Source: Cellulomonas fengjieae (lineage in GTDB: Bacteria > Actinomycetota > Actinomycetes > Actinomycetales > Cellulomonadaceae). Taken from it: a stretch of DNA of 64,000 nucleotides. The notes beneath the pieces were generated by a model, which ran no database searches, was not told the origin of the DNA, and saw only the letters and a list, made by a program, of their open reading frames with translations. Made by a program: the position numbers and the translations under genes. Below, piece after piece: positions 13,329 to 22,140 of the stretch. The DNA is taken from positions 2,480,001-2,544,000 of the forward strand of contig NZ_CP074404.1 in assembly GCF_018388465.1 (NCBI RefSeq). Direction: 5' to 3'. Position 1 is the first letter of the stretch, and each line of letters starts with the position of its first letter.

Positions 13329-13654
13329 GCGCGGTGCTCCTGGTGCCGGGAACCACCACCCACACGCGGCGGCACCCAGTCGGTCGGTCGTCGCACGCGT
13401 GCTGCGCGGCGACGGAAGTCGGCGGTCGTGGCTGCGGCACCGGTCGGCGCCATCGCCTGCGACGCCGGAGCCGGCGGTCCCGATCTGGGACCAGCGGGCG
13501 GCGGAGCGGCGGCTGGCGCGCACGACGTGCTGGTGCTGCGAGCTCAAGGGTCCCCGGGCGGTGTGGTCGTCCAAGGAGCCGCGGTCAGTATCGCACAGGG
13601 CTCCTCGGGTGGTGCGACCGGGTACACGTCGGCGCGTCCGCGGGGCCCGGTACC

Positions 13655-13668
13655 GGGACTTTGGTCCC
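13655..13668 (+). promoter_or_regulatory. DevR/DosR-box-like palindrome upstream of cydA
   Basis: GGGACTTTGGTCCC matches 13 of 14 positions of the mycobacterial DosR core GGGACTTTAGTCCC, with perfect GGGAC/GTCCC arms. It ends where the -35 element of the predicted cydA promoter begins. Its centre lies about 41.5 bp upstream of the predicted start (about 13703), the classical class II activator position. A DevR-like regulator gene lies downstream of the operon it would control. Confidence 0.7.
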
Positions 13669-13690
13669 AGGCGCACACTGGAGGCAGTTC

Positions 13691-13696
13691 TAGCGT
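13691..13696 (+). promoter_or_regulatory. Candidate -10 element of the cydABCD operon
   Basis: TAGCGT, 23 bases after the DevR-like box. The corresponding -35 position (13668-13673, CAGGCG) is poor, as expected of an activator-dependent promoter. The predicted leader to the cydA GTG is about 85 bases. Confidence 0.45.
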
Positions 13697-13787
13697 CTTC
13701 CCAGACCTGACGTCTGTCACCTGGCACGCCCCCGAGCGTGTCGGCCGCCCGGAGCCCATCCGAGCACGAACGCCCATGGAGGAACCC

Positions 13788-15290
13788 GTGGACACCCTCG
13801 ACGTGGCGCGCTGGCAGTTCGGCATCACGACCGTCTACCACTTCATCTTCGTCCCGCTGACGATCGGCCTGGCGCCGCTGGTCGCGGGCATGCAGACGGC
13901 CTGGGTGCGGACCGGCAACGAACGCTGGCTGCGGCTGACCAAGTTCTTCGGCAAGCTCCTGCTGATCAACTTCGCGATCGGCGTGGCCACCGGCATCGTC
14001 CAGGAGTTCCAGTTCGGGATGGCGTGGAGCGAGTACTCGCGGTTCGTCGGCGACGTGTTCGGCGCGCCCCTGGCGATGGAGGCCCTCGCCGCGTTCTTCG
14101 TGGAGTCGACGTTCCTCGGGCTGTGGATCTTCGGCTGGGACAAGCTGCCCAAGAAGATCCACCTCGCCTGCATCTGGGCGGTCGCGATCGCCACCAACCT
14201 GTCGGCGTACTTCATCCTGGCCGCGAACTCGTGGATGCAGCACCCGGTCGGCGCCACGTTCAACGCGGAGCGCGGGCGGGCCGAGATGACCGACATCGGC
14301 GCCGTGCTGTCCAACAACACGCTGCTCGCGGCGTTCCCGCACACGATCTCCGCCGCGTTCCTCACCGCGGGGACCTTCGTCGCGGGCATCGCCGCGTGGT
14401 GGATGGTCCGGCTGGTGCGCGCCGGTCAGGCCGACAAGGCGCGCGACGTCTACCGGCCGGCCGTGGTGCTCGGCGTGGTGGTCATGCTCGTCTCGGGCAT
14501 CGGCGTGGCCGTCTCCGGCGACGCGCAGGCCAAGCTCATGTTCGAGCAGCAGCCGACCAAGATGGCTGCCGCCGAGGCGCTGTGCGAGACGGAGTCGGGC
14601 GTGGCGTTCTCGATCCTCGCCGTGGGCCCGCTCGGCACGGGCGCCAACTGCGACAAGGTCACGCACCTGATCTCGATCCCCGGCGCGCTGTCGTTCATGG
14701 CCACCGGCGACTTCGACTCCACGCTGCAGGGCACCGACGAGCTGCAGCGCGAGTACACCGAGAAGTTCGGGTACACCACCGCGGACGGGCAGCCCGTCAG
14801 CTACATCCCCAACCTCGCCATCACGTACTGGTCGTTCCGGCTCATGATCGGCTTCGCGCTCGGCTCCGCCGCGCTCGCCCTCGTCGCCCTGTGGGTCACC
14901 CGCAAGGGGCGCGTGAGCGGCAACGTGTGGGTCGGCAGGCTCGGCATCGCCGCCATCGCGACCCCGTTCCTGGCCTCGTCGTTCGGGTGGATCTTCACCG
15001 AGATGGGCCGCCAGCCGTGGGTCGTCGCGCCCAACCCGAACCCCGGCGGCGTCGACGGCGTCTGGCTGCTCACCGCGCGGGGCGTGTCCACGGTGACGAG
15101 CACGGGGACCGTCCTGACGAGCCTCATCGCGTTCACCCTGCTCTACGGCGTCCTGGCCGTGTTCTGGTACCGCCTCATGCACCGCTACGCGATCGAGGGC
15201 GTCGCGGACACCGAGCACGACCCCAGCCCGGACAACCCCGACAACGACCCGGACGGCGCGGCCGACCGTCCGCTGTCGTTCGCGTACTGA
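13788..15290 (+). CDS. cydA: Cytochrome bd ubiquinol/menaquinol oxidase subunit I
   Basis: A 500-residue membrane subunit carrying the quinol site and the three haems of cytochrome bd oxidase, a high-affinity terminal oxidase. The family start (LDVARWQFGITTVYHFIFV) includes the haem b595 ligand His at residue 18. FPHTISAAFLTAGTF carries the b558 ligand region and GWIFTEMGRQPWVV is the conserved late motif. I chose the GTG at 13788 because GGAGG ends five bases before it. The in-frame ATG at 13776 overlaps that ribosome-binding site. First gene of cydABCD. Confidence 0.95.
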   Translation: MDTLDVARWQFGITTVYHFIFVPLTIGLAPLVAGMQTAWVRTGNERWLRLTKFFGKLLLINFAIGVATGIVQEFQFGMAWSEYSRFVGDVFGAPLAMEALAAFFVESTFLGLWIFGWDKLPKKIHLACIWAVAIATNLSAYFILAANSWMQHPVGATFNAERGRAEMTDIGAVLSNNTLLAAFPHTISAAFLTAGTFVAGIAAWWMVRLVRAGQADKARDVYRPAVVLGVVVMLVSGIGVAVSGDAQAKLMFEQQPTKMAAAEALCETESGVAFSILAVGPLGTGANCDKVTHLISIPGALSFMATGDFDSTLQGTDELQREYTEKFGYTTADGQPVSYIPNLAITYWSFRLMIGFALGSAALALVALWVTRKGRVSGNVWVGRLGIAAIATPFLASSFGWIFTEMGRQPWVVAPNPNPGGVDGVWLLTARGVSTVTSTGTVLTSLIAFTLLYGVLAVFWYRLMHRYAIEGVADTEHDPSPDNPDNDPDGAADRPLSFAY

Positions 15291-15304: not shown

Positions 15305-16372
15305 ATGGAGCTCACCACCGTCTGGTTCCTGCTCATCGCGGTCCTGTGGACCGGGTACCTCGTGCTCGAGGGGTTCGACTTCGGCGTCGGGATGCTGCTC
15401 GGGCTGCTGTCGCGCGGCGACCGCGCGGCCAAGGACCGCGACCGCCGCGTCATGATCAACACGATCGGACCCGTCTGGGACGGCAACGAGGTGTGGCTGC
15501 TCACCGCCGGCGGTGCCACGTTCGCGGCGTTCCCGGAGTGGTACGCGACCATGTTCTCGGGCTTCTACCTGCCGCTGCTGCTCATCCTGCTGGCGCTCAT
15601 CGTCCGCGTCGTGTCGTTCGAGTGGCGGGGCAAGATCAACGACGACCGCTGGCGGGCGCTGGCCGACCGCAGCCTCATGGTGGGCTCCTGGGTCCCGGCG
15701 GTGCTCTGGGGCGTGGCGTTCGCCAACCTGGTCCGCGGCGTCCAGCTCGACGCCGAGCACCAGTACGTCGGCGGGTTCTGGGCACTGCTCAACCCGTTCG
15801 CCCTGCTTGGCGGCGCGACGACCGCCCTGATCTTCCTCACCCACGGCGCGGTGTTCCTCGCCCTGAAGTCGGACGGCGAGATCCGCGCCCGCGCCGGGGC
15901 GTTCGCCGCGCGGTCGTCGCTGCTCACCCTGCTGGTCGCCGGGGTCTGGGCCGTCTGGGCGCAGCTGGCGTACTCGGTGCCGTGGACGTGGGCGGCCGTC
16001 GTCGTCGCTGCCGGTGCGCTCGTGGTGCTGGTCGCCGCGACGCAGCGCCGCAGGGAAGGCCTCGCGTTCATCGCCTCCGCGGTCGCGATCGTCGCCGCCG
16101 TGGTGCTCATCTTCGGCTCGATGTACCCCGACGTCATGCCCGCGTTCGACCCCGCCAACTCGCTGACGGTGACCAACGCGTCCTCGACCGACTACACGCT
16201 CACCGTGATGACCTGGGTGGCGGTGGCGCTCACCCCGCTCGTGCTGATCTACCAGGGCTGGACGTACTGGGTGTTCCGGAAGCGGGTCTCGTCGGCGCAC
16301 ATCCCCGAGCACACCGGCCTGACCTTCGCCAAGGTGCCCGCCCTGAACAAGCCGTCGTCCAGCGACCAGTGA
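15305..16372 (+). CDS. cydB: Cytochrome bd oxidase subunit II
   Basis: A 355-residue integral membrane partner of CydA. It starts ELTTVWFLLIAVLWTGYLVL then EGFDFGVGML, the usual CydB opening, and has conserved IGPVWDGNEVWLLTAGGATFAAFP. Multiple transmembrane helices. It begins 14 bases after cydA and its stop overlaps the cydD GTG start. Confidence 0.96.
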   Translation: MELTTVWFLLIAVLWTGYLVLEGFDFGVGMLLGLLSRGDRAAKDRDRRVMINTIGPVWDGNEVWLLTAGGATFAAFPEWYATMFSGFYLPLLLILLALIVRVVSFEWRGKINDDRWRALADRSLMVGSWVPAVLWGVAFANLVRGVQLDAEHQYVGGFWALLNPFALLGGATTALIFLTHGAVFLALKSDGEIRARAGAFAARSSLLTLLVAGVWAVWAQLAYSVPWTWAAVVVAAGALVVLVAATQRRREGLAFIASAVAIVAAVVLIFGSMYPDVMPAFDPANSLTVTNASSTDYTLTVMTWVAVALTPLVLIYQGWTYWVFRKRVSSAHIPEHTGLTFAKVPALNKPSSSDQ

Positions 16373-18006
16373 GGCCGCTCGACCCGCGCCTGCTGCGGCA
16401 CGCCCGGGCCGCTCGGGGGTACGTGGCACTGACGGCAGCGCTCGGGGTGCTCACCGCGGCGCTGGTCGTGGCGCAGGCGGTGCTGCTCGCCCACGCGCTC
16501 GGAGACGCGGTGACGGACGGGGTCTCGCTCACCGTCCTCGGTCCGACCGTCGCCTGGCTGGCTGCCGTGGTGCTCGCCCGGGCGCTGGTGACCGCGGTGC
16601 AGGAGCGCTTCGCGCACCGCGCCGCGACCCGCACGGTCGCCGAGCTGCGCGAGCAGGTCGTGGCGCACGCCGTGGCGCTGGGGCCCCGCTGGCTGGCGTC
16701 CGGCGAGGGTCCGCGCGTGGTGACCCTGGCCACGCGCGGCCTGGATGCCCTCGAGCCGTACTTCGTGCGGTACCTGCCGCAGCTGGTGCTCGCCGCGACG
16801 GTCACCCCGGGCGTCCTGCTGGTCGTGCTGGGCCTGGACTGGATCTCCGCCGCGATCCTGTTCGTCGTCCTCCCCCTGGTGCCGATCTTCATGGTCCTCG
16901 TCGGGCGGCTGACCGAGGGCCGCTCGGAGCGAGGTCTGGCCAGCATGCAGCGGCTCGGTGCCCAGGTGCTGGACCTGCTGGCCGGCCTGCCCACCCTGCG
17001 CGCCCACGGCCGCGAGCGCGGTCCGGGAGCACGGGTGCGGTCGCTCGGCGACGCCCACCGCCGCGCGACGATGGGGACCCTGCGGGTCGCGTTCCTGTCG
17101 GGCATGGTCCTGGAGCTCCTCACGACCCTGTCCGTGGCGCTGGTCGCCGTCGGGATCGGCCTGCGGCTGGTGGAGGGCGACCTCGACCTGGTCACGGGGA
17201 TCGCGGTCCTCGTCCTGGCACCCGAGGTGTTCCTCCCCCTGCGTCAGGTGGGCGTGCAGTTCCACGCCGCGGCCGACGGGGTCGCGGCCGCCGGGCAGGC
17301 GTTCGAGGTGCTGGAGACCCCCGTGCCCCCGGTCGGCAGCCTGCCGGCCCCCGACCTGCGCACCGCGACGCTGCGTCTGGAGGGCGTCGGCGTGCGGACC
17401 GGGGGTGGGAGCACGCCGCACGCCCTGGACGTGGTGCTGCGCCCCGGGACTGTGGTGGCGCTCACCGGGCCGAGCGGCGTGGGCAAGACCACCGCGGTCG
17501 AGGTGGCGCTCGGGCTGCTCCGGCCGGACGTCGGACGCGCGTCGGTGGACGGGGTCGACCTGGTGGACCTCGACCTGCAGTCCCTCTGGGCACAGGTCTC
17601 ATGGCTGCCGCAGCGCCCCGTGCTCGAGCCCGGGACCGTGGCGCAGCTGGTGGGCGGTGACGAACCCGCGCGACGGGCCGCGGCCGCGCTCACCGGGCTG
17701 GACGCGGTGCTCGCGACGCTGCCGGACGGCTGGTCCACCGTGCTCGGGCGCGGCGGCGAAGGACTCAGCCTCGGCCAGCGGCAGCGCGTCGCCCTGACGC
17801 GCACGCTCGTCGAGAGCACCCCGCTCGTCGTGCTCGACGAGCCGACCGCCCACCTGGACGCTGCCGGCGAGCAGGTGGTCCTGGACACGGTCCGCGCGCT
17901 GCGGGACGCCGGCCGGACCGTGCTGCTCGTCGCCCACCGCGCCTCGCTGGTCGCCGCGGCCGACGAGGTCGTGCGCGTGCGGTCGGCCGCACCGGTGCCC
18001 GCATGA
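16369..18006 (+). CDS. cydD: ABC transporter CydD (thiol exporter for cytochrome bd assembly)
   Basis: A 545-residue half-transporter: N-terminal six-helix membrane domain (about 1-310) and a C-terminal ATPase. Walker A is TGPSGVGKTTAVEVALG, the signature is LSLGQRQRVAL, and Walker B is PLVVLDEPTAHLD. CydDC exports reduced thiols and is required for bd oxidase maturation. The GTG start forms a GTGA overlap with cydB and the stop forms an ATGA overlap with cydC, so the operon is translationally coupled. Confidence 0.94.
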   Translation: MRPLDPRLLRHARAARGYVALTAALGVLTAALVVAQAVLLAHALGDAVTDGVSLTVLGPTVAWLAAVVLARALVTAVQERFAHRAATRTVAELREQVVAHAVALGPRWLASGEGPRVVTLATRGLDALEPYFVRYLPQLVLAATVTPGVLLVVLGLDWISAAILFVVLPLVPIFMVLVGRLTEGRSERGLASMQRLGAQVLDLLAGLPTLRAHGRERGPGARVRSLGDAHRRATMGTLRVAFLSGMVLELLTTLSVALVAVGIGLRLVEGDLDLVTGIAVLVLAPEVFLPLRQVGVQFHAAADGVAAAGQAFEVLETPVPPVGSLPAPDLRTATLRLEGVGVRTGGGSTPHALDVVLRPGTVVALTGPSGVGKTTAVEVALGLLRPDVGRASVDGVDLVDLDLQSLWAQVSWLPQRPVLEPGTVAQLVGGDEPARRAAAALTGLDAVLATLPDGWSTVLGRGGEGLSLGQRQRVALTRTLVESTPLVVLDEPTAHLDAAGEQVVLDTVRALRDAGRTVLLVAHRASLVAAADEVVRVRSAAPVPA

Positions 18007-19731
18007 CGCGCGGGACGTTGCGCCGTGCGGTCCGCCTCCTCGACATCGACCCGAGGCGCCTGGCGCTGGCCCTCCTGCTCGGTACGCTCGCGCTCGGCTG
18101 CGGGGTGGCACTGGCCGCCGTGTCCGCCTGGCTCATCGCGCGGGCCTCCCAGATGCCGCCGGTGCTCCAGCTGTCCGTGGCGACCGTCGCGGTGCGCGCG
18201 TTCGGCATCGGGCGCGGCGTGCTGCGCTACCTCGAGCGGCTCGTGTCCCACGACGTCGCCCTGCGCGGCATGACCCAGCTGCGCACCACGCTGTACGACC
18301 GGCTCGCGACGGCGCGCCCGGAGACGCTGCTGCGCCTGCGCCGGGGAGACCTGCTCGCCCGCGTCGGTGCGGACGTCGACACGGTGGGGGACGTCGTCGT
18401 GCGCGGGCTGCTGCCCGCCGGGGTGGCGACGCTCCTGGGCGCGGGCACGGTGCTGGCGATGTCGTTGTTCTGGCCACCGGCCGGCCTCGCCCTGGCCGGG
18501 TGCCTCCTGCTCGCCGGGGTGGCAGGACCCGTGATCGCGGCCCGCGCGGCGCGGACCACGGAGGAGCGGGCGCTGCAGAGCCGGGCGGACATGACCGCGA
18601 CGGCGCTCGGCCTCCTGGACGACGCCGGCCCCTTGGTGGTCGCCGGGCGCGCACCCGGCGAGCTGGCCGCCCTGCGGGACGCGGACCGCCGCCTGGCCGT
18701 CGCGACCGACGCCGGGGCCGGCCCCGCCGCGCTCGCCGCCGGCCTCGGACAGCTCGCCGTCGGCCTCGCGGTGCTGGCCGCCCTGGTCACCGGCGTGCCC
18801 GCGGTCGGCGCGGGCCTGCTGACCCCGGTCGAGCTCGCCGTCGTGGTCCTCACACCGCTCGCGGCCTTCGAGGCGACCTCACTCCTTCCCGCGGCCGCGA
18901 TCCAGGTGCAGCGCTCACGTGCCGCGGCCGCGCGGGTCCTCGCCCTCCTGGACGCGCCGACCGACCCTGCGCCGACCGACCACGGCCCCGCCGGTCCCCC
19001 GCTCGTCGCGGTCGACGTCGCCGCCGGCTGGCCCGGAGCGGTCCCGGTGGTCACGGGGCTGGACCTCGAGCTGCGTCCCGGCCGCTCCGTGGCGATCGTC
19101 GGCCCGTCCGGCACGGGCAAGACCACGACGTTGCTGACCCTGGCCGGCCTGCTCCCCCGGCGCCACGGCTCGCTCACGCTCGGCGGCCACGACGTGGACC
19201 ACCTGGACCGCGGGACCGTCGTCGGCGCCGTGGTCGTCGGGACCGAGGACGCCCACGTCTTCGGCACCACGGTGCTGGAGAACCTCCGCGTGGCGCGCGG
19301 CGACGTCACGGAGGCGGAGGCGGTCGCGGTACTCGCCCGCGTCGGGCTCGACGAGTGGCTCGACGGCCTGCCGGACGGGCTGGACACGCTGCTCGGCCCC
19401 GACGCCCGCACGGTCTCCGGCGGAGAGCGTCGCCGCCTGCTGGTAGCGCGGACGCTGCTCTCGCCCGCCGCGCTGCTCCTGGTGGACGAGCCCGCGGAGC
19501 ACCTCGACCCGCAGCGGGCGGACGCGCTGGTGGCCGACCTGCTGGACGACCCGCGGGGGGTGGTGCTGGTCACGCACCGGCTGACCCCGCTGGCCGCCGC
19601 CGACGAGATCCTCTGGCTGCAGGACGGTCTCGTCCGTGCGCGCGGGACGCACGCGGACCTCGTCGCGTCGTCGCCCGGTTACCGTGAGGCGTTGCAGCGC
19701 GAACGCGCCGGCGACGAGACGGAGGCAGAAC

Positions 19732-19742
<11 letters not shown>
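18003..19742 (+). CDS. cydC: ABC transporter CydC (partner of CydD)
   Basis: A 579-residue second half of the heterodimeric CydDC exporter. The membrane domain opens with SAWLIARASQMPPVLQLSVA, a typical CydC motif, and AFGIGRGVLRYLERLVSHD. The ATPase has Walker A GPSGTGKTTTLLTLAG, signature TVSGGERRRLLVA and Walker B LLLVDEPAEHLD. Its last 11 bases overlap the start of the sensor kinase. Confidence 0.94.
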
Positions 19743-21429
<1,687 letters not shown>

Positions 21430-21444
<15 letters not shown>

Positions 21445-21474: not shown

Positions 21475-22140
21475 TCAGTGCCCGGACTCGGACCGCCAGC
21501 CGGCGTGCCGGTGCGACGCGACCCACGCGGCCACCTGCGTGCGTCGCTGCAGGCCCATCTTCGCCAGCAGCGACGTGATGTGGTTCTTGACGGTCTTCTC
21601 CACGACGCCCAGGCGCTCGGCGATCTCGCGGTTCGACAGGCCCTCGCCGATGAGGTCGATGACGCGCAGCTCGCTCGGCGTCAGGCTCTCCGTCGGGTCG
21701 TCGTGCCCCGCCTTGCGGCGCGTCACGGTGCGCTCGTCGAGCAGGACGCGCCCGGCCGCGACCGCGCGGATCACGTCGGTGATCTCGGCCCCGCGCACCG
21801 ACTTCAGCAGGTAGGCGGCGGCCCCGGCGTCCAGGGCCTCCGCGAGGGCGTCGTCGTCGTCGAACGACGTGAGCACGATCGCGCGTGCGCTCGGCAGCTG
21901 CTCGCGCACCGCCGTCAGAAGCTCGATCCCGGTGCCGTCCGGCAGCTGGAGGTCGACCAGCAGGACCTGCGGGCGCACCAGGGCGGCGCGCCGGACCCCG
22001 TCGGCGACCGACCCCGCCTCGGCGACGACCGTCATGCCCTCGGCCCGGTCCACCACCTCGGCGATACCCCTGCGGACCACCTCGTGGTCGTCGATGATCA
22101 TGACGGTGATAGGGGCGGCGGAGGCGCTGATGGGAGGCAC
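21475..22140 (-). CDS. NarL/DevR-like response regulator
   Basis: A 221-residue two-component regulator. The receiver domain (MIIDDHEVVRRGIAEVV, then LLVDLQLPDGTGIELL with the phospho-acceptor Asp, VLTSFDDDD and AYLLKSVRG) is followed by a LuxR-type HTH (LTPSELRVIDLIGEGLSNRE, EKTVKNHITSLLAKMG). VEKTVKN, SLLAKMGLQRRTQ and the preserved LPDGTGIEL are close to mycobacterial DevR. It is the probable partner of the adjacent GAF kinase. I chose GTG 22140 because TACCAT lies exactly six bases upstream, suggesting a leaderless mRNA; there is no ribosome-binding site. Confidence 0.88.
   Translation of the reverse strand: MPPISASAAPITVMIIDDHEVVRRGIAEVVDRAEGMTVVAEAGSVADGVRRAALVRPQVLLVDLQLPDGTGIELLTAVREQLPSARAIVLTSFDDDDALAEALDAGAAAYLLKSVRGAEITDVIRAVAAGRVLLDERTVTRRKAGHDDPTESLTPSELRVIDLIGEGLSNREIAERLGVVEKTVKNHITSLLAKMGLQRRTQVAAWVASHRHAGWRSESGH

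Follow-up and report, generated by a model that had tools for sequence, protein, structure and literature searches.

Cytochrome bd is a high-affinity oxygen-using enzyme that lets bacteria respire at low oxygen, and the locus considered here raises the question of how its genes are switched on in Cellulomonas fengjieae. We analysed 64,000 nt of contig NZ_CP074404.1 (positions 2,480,001 to 2,544,000), hereafter the window, in which a cydABDC operon is preceded by a candidate operator (Table 1). The initial annotation had read this box as a DevR/DosR-like site through which a DevR-type regulator encoded beside the operon would activate it directly. Overall, our results support this reading, and they point to an oxygen-responsive system that would be distinct from the DevR system of mycobacteria.

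Table 1. Features of the cyd locus (positions in the window).
Feature	Position	Strand	Basis or remark
DevR/DosR-type dyad GGGACTTTGGTCCC, predicted operator of cydABDC	13655..13668	.	sequence and conservation
Predicted -10 hexamer TAGCGT	13691..13696	+	22 nt after the box, no -35
cydA	13788..15290	+	GTG start, GGAGG upstream
cydB	15305..16372	+	named by place and by eye
cydD-type ABC transporter gene	16369..18006	+	by eye; GTG start a guess
cydC-type ABC transporter gene	18003..19742	+	by eye
GAF-GAF-HisKA_3-HATPase sensor kinase, DevS/DosT-like	19732..21444	+	domains; GTG start
DevR-type response regulator, EKTVKN recognition helix	21475..22140	-	convergent with the kinase

The cydA box: sequence, conservation and spacing

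The dyad GGGACTTTGGTCCC and the hexamer TAGCGT are both found where the initial annotation had placed them. The annotation had described the box as one position away from the mycobacterial DosR core; relative to the core it used, GGGACTWWAGTCCC, the departure is at position 9. A passage of PMC6448022 gives GGGACTTNNGNCCC(T) as the stringent consensus of DosR, and the box shows no mismatch to GGGACTTNNGNCCC over 14 positions, as expected of a DosR box. The exact 14-mer occurs once in the 3.99-Mb genome and is the sole place with zero to two mismatches in the window, where seven places with up to three mismatches, relative to 5.9 expected, are chance-like. Across the genome, 17 places lie within two mismatches of the box and eight within two mismatches of the reversed pattern; two of the 17 are identical to each other and, we assume, resemble 23S rRNA. 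The 17 places include sites before pflB, phosphoketolase and class II aldolase. Further boxes before low-oxygen genes, for which the initial annotation had suggested a whole-genome search, are present at pflB and phosphoketolase, but the consensus GGGACCWWGGTCCC shows no excess at one mismatch in this genome (five places versus five), and two-mismatch matches to the looser pattern GGGACTTNNGNCCC are fewer than expected by chance (16 versus 33). This indicates that the strength of the box lies in its conservation and position rather than in genome counts. A plasmid search using the promoter returned no matches.

Conservation was assessed at 80 named loci that hold a relative of cydA by taking the best match to GGGACYWWRGTCCC in the 400 bp upstream, and 3497 control windows were drawn from the same 80 loci. 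A match with at most two mismatches precedes cydA at 61 of the 80 actinobacterial loci, which are related to one another and hence do not provide independent counts, compared with 41 of the 3497 control windows. The box is thus conserved in related genomes, with 20 loci presenting no mismatch, 27 presenting one and 14 presenting two, and the true consensus of the cydA boxes is the palindrome GGGACCWWGGTCCC. The closest named relatives include C. humilata, whose cydA is 86% identical and whose regulator is 95% identical. When eight Cellulomonas-type promoters were aligned (mean identity 50%), the box and the -10 stood out. The dyad might have arisen as a chance palindrome in GC-rich DNA, an origin with which the lack of a consensus excess in this genome would agree; the conservation rules this out and, together with the fixed spacing described below, leaves such an origin virtually no probability.

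Most of these eight promoters also keep the sequence AGTATCGCACAGG, at about 13588-13601 of the window. By eye, it reads as the putative -10 of an RNase E-like gene that runs divergently along the minus strand.

The position of the box relative to the promoter is equally informative. By arithmetic, the box centre (13661.5) lies 41.5 bp before 13703, the predicted start. The initial annotation had argued that the box stands where a good -35 element would be, and indeed the closest approach to a -35 in the range of 16-19 nt upstream of TAGCGT matches 2/6 positions (CAGGCG); a sigma-70 scan of 13350-13850 found no promoter. We compared this arrangement across 22 hand-picked box-bearing loci, namely those of the window, Cellulomonas, Actinotalea, Demequina, Actinomycetales relatives, Helcobacillus and Flaviflexus. 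The motif TANNNT follows the best box in 21 of the 22, at a distance of 22 nt (nine loci), 23 nt (one) or 24 nt (11), and in the remaining locus the motif follows a second box at 22 nt. On the opposite side of the box, no TANNNT was found at 22-24 nt in any of the 22 loci. Their best -35 matches average 2.45/6, as compared to 2.40 at random places. This spacing predicts a class II placement of the box in the picked loci, at about -41.5/-43.5. The class II placement put forward by the initial annotation is consistent with the fixed distance in Cellulomonas- and Demequina-type loci, but the spacing is not shared by the 39 remaining loci with a box, most of them from Pseudonocardiales, among which a single locus has TANNNT at 22-24 nt. 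Many of these 39 loci present, by eye, a second and looser copy about 22-24 bp further on; in Pseudonocardiales loci such as L076-L080 and L083, which retain box and regulator but whose kinases have no heme-type GAF, this is the half-site GGGACCGTCGTACC.

Because the dyad overlaps the expected place of the -35, the box could alternatively be a repressor site, at which the bound regulator would block RNA polymerase in air. However, the 22 picked loci have no -35 that could be blocked, and box-to-(-10) distances of 22 and 24 nt, or 23-24 nt at pflB, fit an activator that touches the polymerase. We consider repression at cydA quite unlikely.

Regulator, kinase and Rex

The GTG of the kinase overlaps the stop of cydC (19732-19742), which makes the kinase gene the last gene of the cydABDC operon; the kinase should consequently be produced from the cyd operon itself, a positive feedback. 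Its GAF-GAF-HisKA_3-HATPase architecture is that of DevS/DosT, and among solved structures DosT and DevS come closest to its first GAF. We aligned 23 kinases (22 chosen from 50 kinase hits, plus that of the window). The histidine aligned with the heme ligand of DevS is kept in 21 of the 23 rows and a tyrosine in all 23, and the window kinase keeps both; we take these residues to be the proximal His and distal Tyr of the DevS heme pocket. The kinases of the 39 Pseudonocardiales-rich loci mostly match only from about residue 220 and are devoid of the heme-type GAF. Heme oxygen sensing therefore cannot be general among the box-bearing loci.

The regulator combines a receiver domain (PF00072) with a LuxR-type HTH (PF00196), and its start was assigned to the GTG at 22140 because the first beta strand is needed. 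Its best solved relative is DevR of Mycobacterium tuberculosis (3c3w, E = 6e-49), with which it shares the EKTVKN helix; we assume the Lys, Lys and Asn of this helix to be the DNA-contacting residues of DevR. In a tree of 70 regulators, the window regulator falls in a clade of 48 rows (support 96/99), mostly cyd-linked, whereas M. tuberculosis DevR belongs to a seven-row clade (98/93) that is sister to it, the two jointly forming a group of 55 rows (98/98). The 48-row clade includes a long-branch paralogue from the same genome (L110), whose placement is unsure. The initial annotation was right to place a DevR-type regulator beside the operon, and this protein carries the recognition helix of DevR, but the separate sister clades indicate that it is not a DevR orthologue.

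We evaluated the co-occurrence of box and regulator at the 69 loci with at least 9.5 kb of sequence downstream of cydA. Both are present at 41 loci, the box only at 11, the regulator only at two and neither at 15 (Fisher p = 1.2e-6, with related loci counted as independent). For nine of the 11 box-only loci the genome was searched, and all nine encode a related regulator (E<=1e-38). Conceivably, another DevR-type or LuxR-type regulator from elsewhere in the genome binds the box. In line with this, no regulator lies downstream at 11 of the 52 loci that have a box and whose sequence extends far enough, and Oerskovia and Cellulosimicrobium possess the box and only a DevR-proper regulator. In the genome of the window, however, we detected 16 NarL-type regulators (E<=1e-10), and the EKTVKN helix is found in the cyd neighbour only; the remaining 15 do not have the DevR helix, and binding by one of them appears unlikely.

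Two regulator-bearing cydA loci (L060 and L096) present no box, and their kinases also do not have the heme histidine. A rule that the box is missing wherever the heme histidine is missing would be based on these two cases among the 23 chosen rows, and we do not rely on it, since loci whose kinases have lost the whole GAF (L073, Pseudonocardiales) keep the box. The genome of Cellulomonas fimi SB (L049) presents cydA with neither the box nor an adjoining regulator; its cyd-type regulator is encoded on a different contig, and pflB and ctaC both have boxes.

Rex is the other candidate to be weighed. Passages of PMC7739888 and PMC5355995 state that Rex controls cydAB in Streptomyces by redox state, and the same could hold here: a Rex-family gene (PF06971) is present in the genome, and a Rex operator (at most two mismatches) precedes cydA at 13 of the 80 loci, three of which also carry the box. 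Relatives without a cyd-type regulator often have Rex operators. Against Rex control of this operon, the operator TTGTGAAnnnnTTCACAA, which would assign it to the Rex regulon, has no match with up to three mismatches in the whole window, and none of the 43 regulator-bearing loci presents a Rex operator with at most two mismatches before cydA. This makes Rex control of cydABDC here very improbable. Loss of the Rex gene is not the reason for the missing Rex control: Rex-family genes exceed the cut-off in 19 of 32 genomes, and the genome of the window and most Cellulomonas-type relatives keep theirs.

Candidate further targets and the aa3 oxidase

The pflB box is conserved beyond the window's genome. 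It was detected with at most two mismatches at 16 of 30 loci of relatives versus none of 240 control windows, and, with the own locus counted, at 15 of the 25 loci from regulator-bearing genomes. The motif TANNNT follows the pflB box by 23-24 nt at 19 of the 22 regulator-bearing loci with up to three mismatches. Counting against regulation of pflB by this protein, ten of the 25 loci have no box at this level, and two of six pflB loci from genomes without the regulator do have one, 213-215 bp away. Four of these six have a Rex operator (at most two mismatches). Phosphoketolase, which we considered as a second conserved target, was set aside as weak (five of 28 loci versus four of 224 control windows, at most two mismatches).

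At one mismatch, the consensus occurs 264 times in 24 regulator-bearing genomes versus 78 times for the reversed pattern, and 59 versus 38 times in eight genomes without the regulator, of which Oerskovia and Cellulosimicrobium contribute 33 versus 10. The raw list of sites in relatives, compiled with no shuffled control, includes boxes before nrdD, the pyruvate:ferredoxin oxidoreductase gamma gene, feoA, sucC, ccsB and thiolase genes. As a raw count, again with no shuffled control and for part of the sites of these genomes, 21 of 91 groups of box-downstream genes recur in at least two genomes. Universal stress proteins and the regulator's own gene belong to the core dormancy genes controlled by DevR. 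By eye, boxes precede two universal-stress-like genes in relatives (L200 and L260); none was seen among the 17 places of the window's genome. In three genomes (L007, L248 and L281), a box lies upstream of the gene for a small membrane protein that belongs to no known family.

Taken with the spacing and the co-occurrence, these observations lead us to a reading to which we assign a probability of about 0.8: the box would be the binding site of the neighbouring DevR-type regulator, which would activate cydABDC and pflB at low oxygen through a class II contact, with the kinase as oxygen sensor. From these sequence features we infer the following chain of sensing, phosphorylation, binding and activation. 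At low oxygen the kinase, whose first GAF retains the DevS/DosT heme-pocket residues, would phosphorylate the regulator, which would then bind the dyad where a -35 would otherwise stand, with its centre near -41.5. Acting as a class II activator, the bound regulator would contact RNA polymerase and switch on cydABDC, including the kinase gene at its end, and would thereby reinforce its own signal. The same regulator would activate pflB from a box at a like distance from the -10 and probably also further anaerobic genes in relatives.

This reading might be extended to a reciprocal switch, in which the same regulator would repress the aa3 branch, through dyads at or just after the ctaC start and less clearly at ctaE, while activating cydABDC. 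The ctaC and ctaE sites of the window's genome were found with a looser pattern. At ctaC, a AGGACGAAGGTCCC-type dyad lies about 10 nt after a -10-like TAGGCT, and 13 of the 23 regulator-bearing genomes, that of the window among them, have it with at most two mismatches, versus none of 214 control windows. At ctaE, 10 of 13 Cellulomonas-type genomes carry a GGG-C/T-C....G-N-CCC dyad (three mismatches) 30 or 38 nt ahead of the match start, as compared to 10 of 184 control windows with three mismatches and none with a better match, and Demequina maris presents GGGACCTATGTCCC over the start codon of ctaE. Relative to the predicted promoters, these positions would be compatible with repression. However, one of eight genomes without a cyd-type regulator has the ctaC dyad at the same place with at most two mismatches and five more have it with three or four; the ctaE dyad reaches at most two mismatches in just two of 23 regulator-bearing genomes and one of eight others; and in Pseudonocardiales no dyad was found at two mismatches in 12 ctaC and eight ctaE upstream regions. 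Because the ctaC dyad persists in genomes without the regulator, we regard repression of the aa3 branch as a bold and tentative proposal, somewhat short of an even chance.

Relation to known systems and meaning

The system resembles mycobacterial DevR/DosR-DevS/DosT in its box sequence, recognition helix, heme-pocket GAF kinase and kinase-regulator pairing. It differs in that its regulator belongs to a sister clade, that it sits with cydABDC and that its predicted target is cydA. Our preferred reading must be weighed against the situation in M. smegmatis, where, according to passages of PMC7739888, DevR does not control cydAB: the genes are not part of the DevR regulon, and their induction persists in a devR mutant. 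The same passages attribute induction of cydAB under respiration-inhibiting conditions to Crp, likewise an activator of cydAB but a cAMP receptor protein rather than a two-component system. A passage of PMC8125079 further describes DosR as dispensable for growth with CO in M. smegmatis. Rex of Streptomyces is another protein with another operator, and among the cydA loci analysed here its operator appears only where the cyd-type regulator is absent.

DevR-like regulators are also described outside mycobacteria. Parts of PMC5069765 report that OsdK-OsdR of Streptomyces coelicolor recognizes a related palindrome, with consensus AGGGCCGATCGGCCCT, and the word 'cyd' does not occur in the main text of that paper. 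Similarly, the DevS/DevR-like pair PolS-PolR of Microlunatus phosphovorus binds direct repeats, GTTCACnnnnnGTTCaC, before phosphate genes, as stated in passages of PMC6754071. A full-text literature search, with subscription journals mostly outside its reach, found no paper on a cyd-linked DevR-type system. In the literature passages that we consulted, the named regulators of actinobacterial cyd genes are Rex and Crp, and the single DevR tested was without cyd control.

It is conceivable, although we put this forward as a doubtful generalization rather than a probable one, that a large part of Actinobacteria relies on a sister system of DevRS, dedicated to cyd, as its main terminal-oxidase switch and as an alternative to Rex. 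A single operator would serve throughout, with cytochrome bd and pyruvate formate-lyase activated from about -42 and, in Cellulomonas-type genomes, aa3 repressed just after its start; the sensor would have changed, with the heme GAF lost in Pseudonocardiales, while the operator was kept. If true, a conserved cyd-linked system of this type would explain oxidase choice in many actinobacteria. Two operons, cyd and pfl, would then both have exchanged Rex for a two-component system, a clear case of regulator replacement in soil species. The arrangement of box and regulator recurs in many relatives, and it may help these bacteria to swap respiratory enzymes when oxygen is short.
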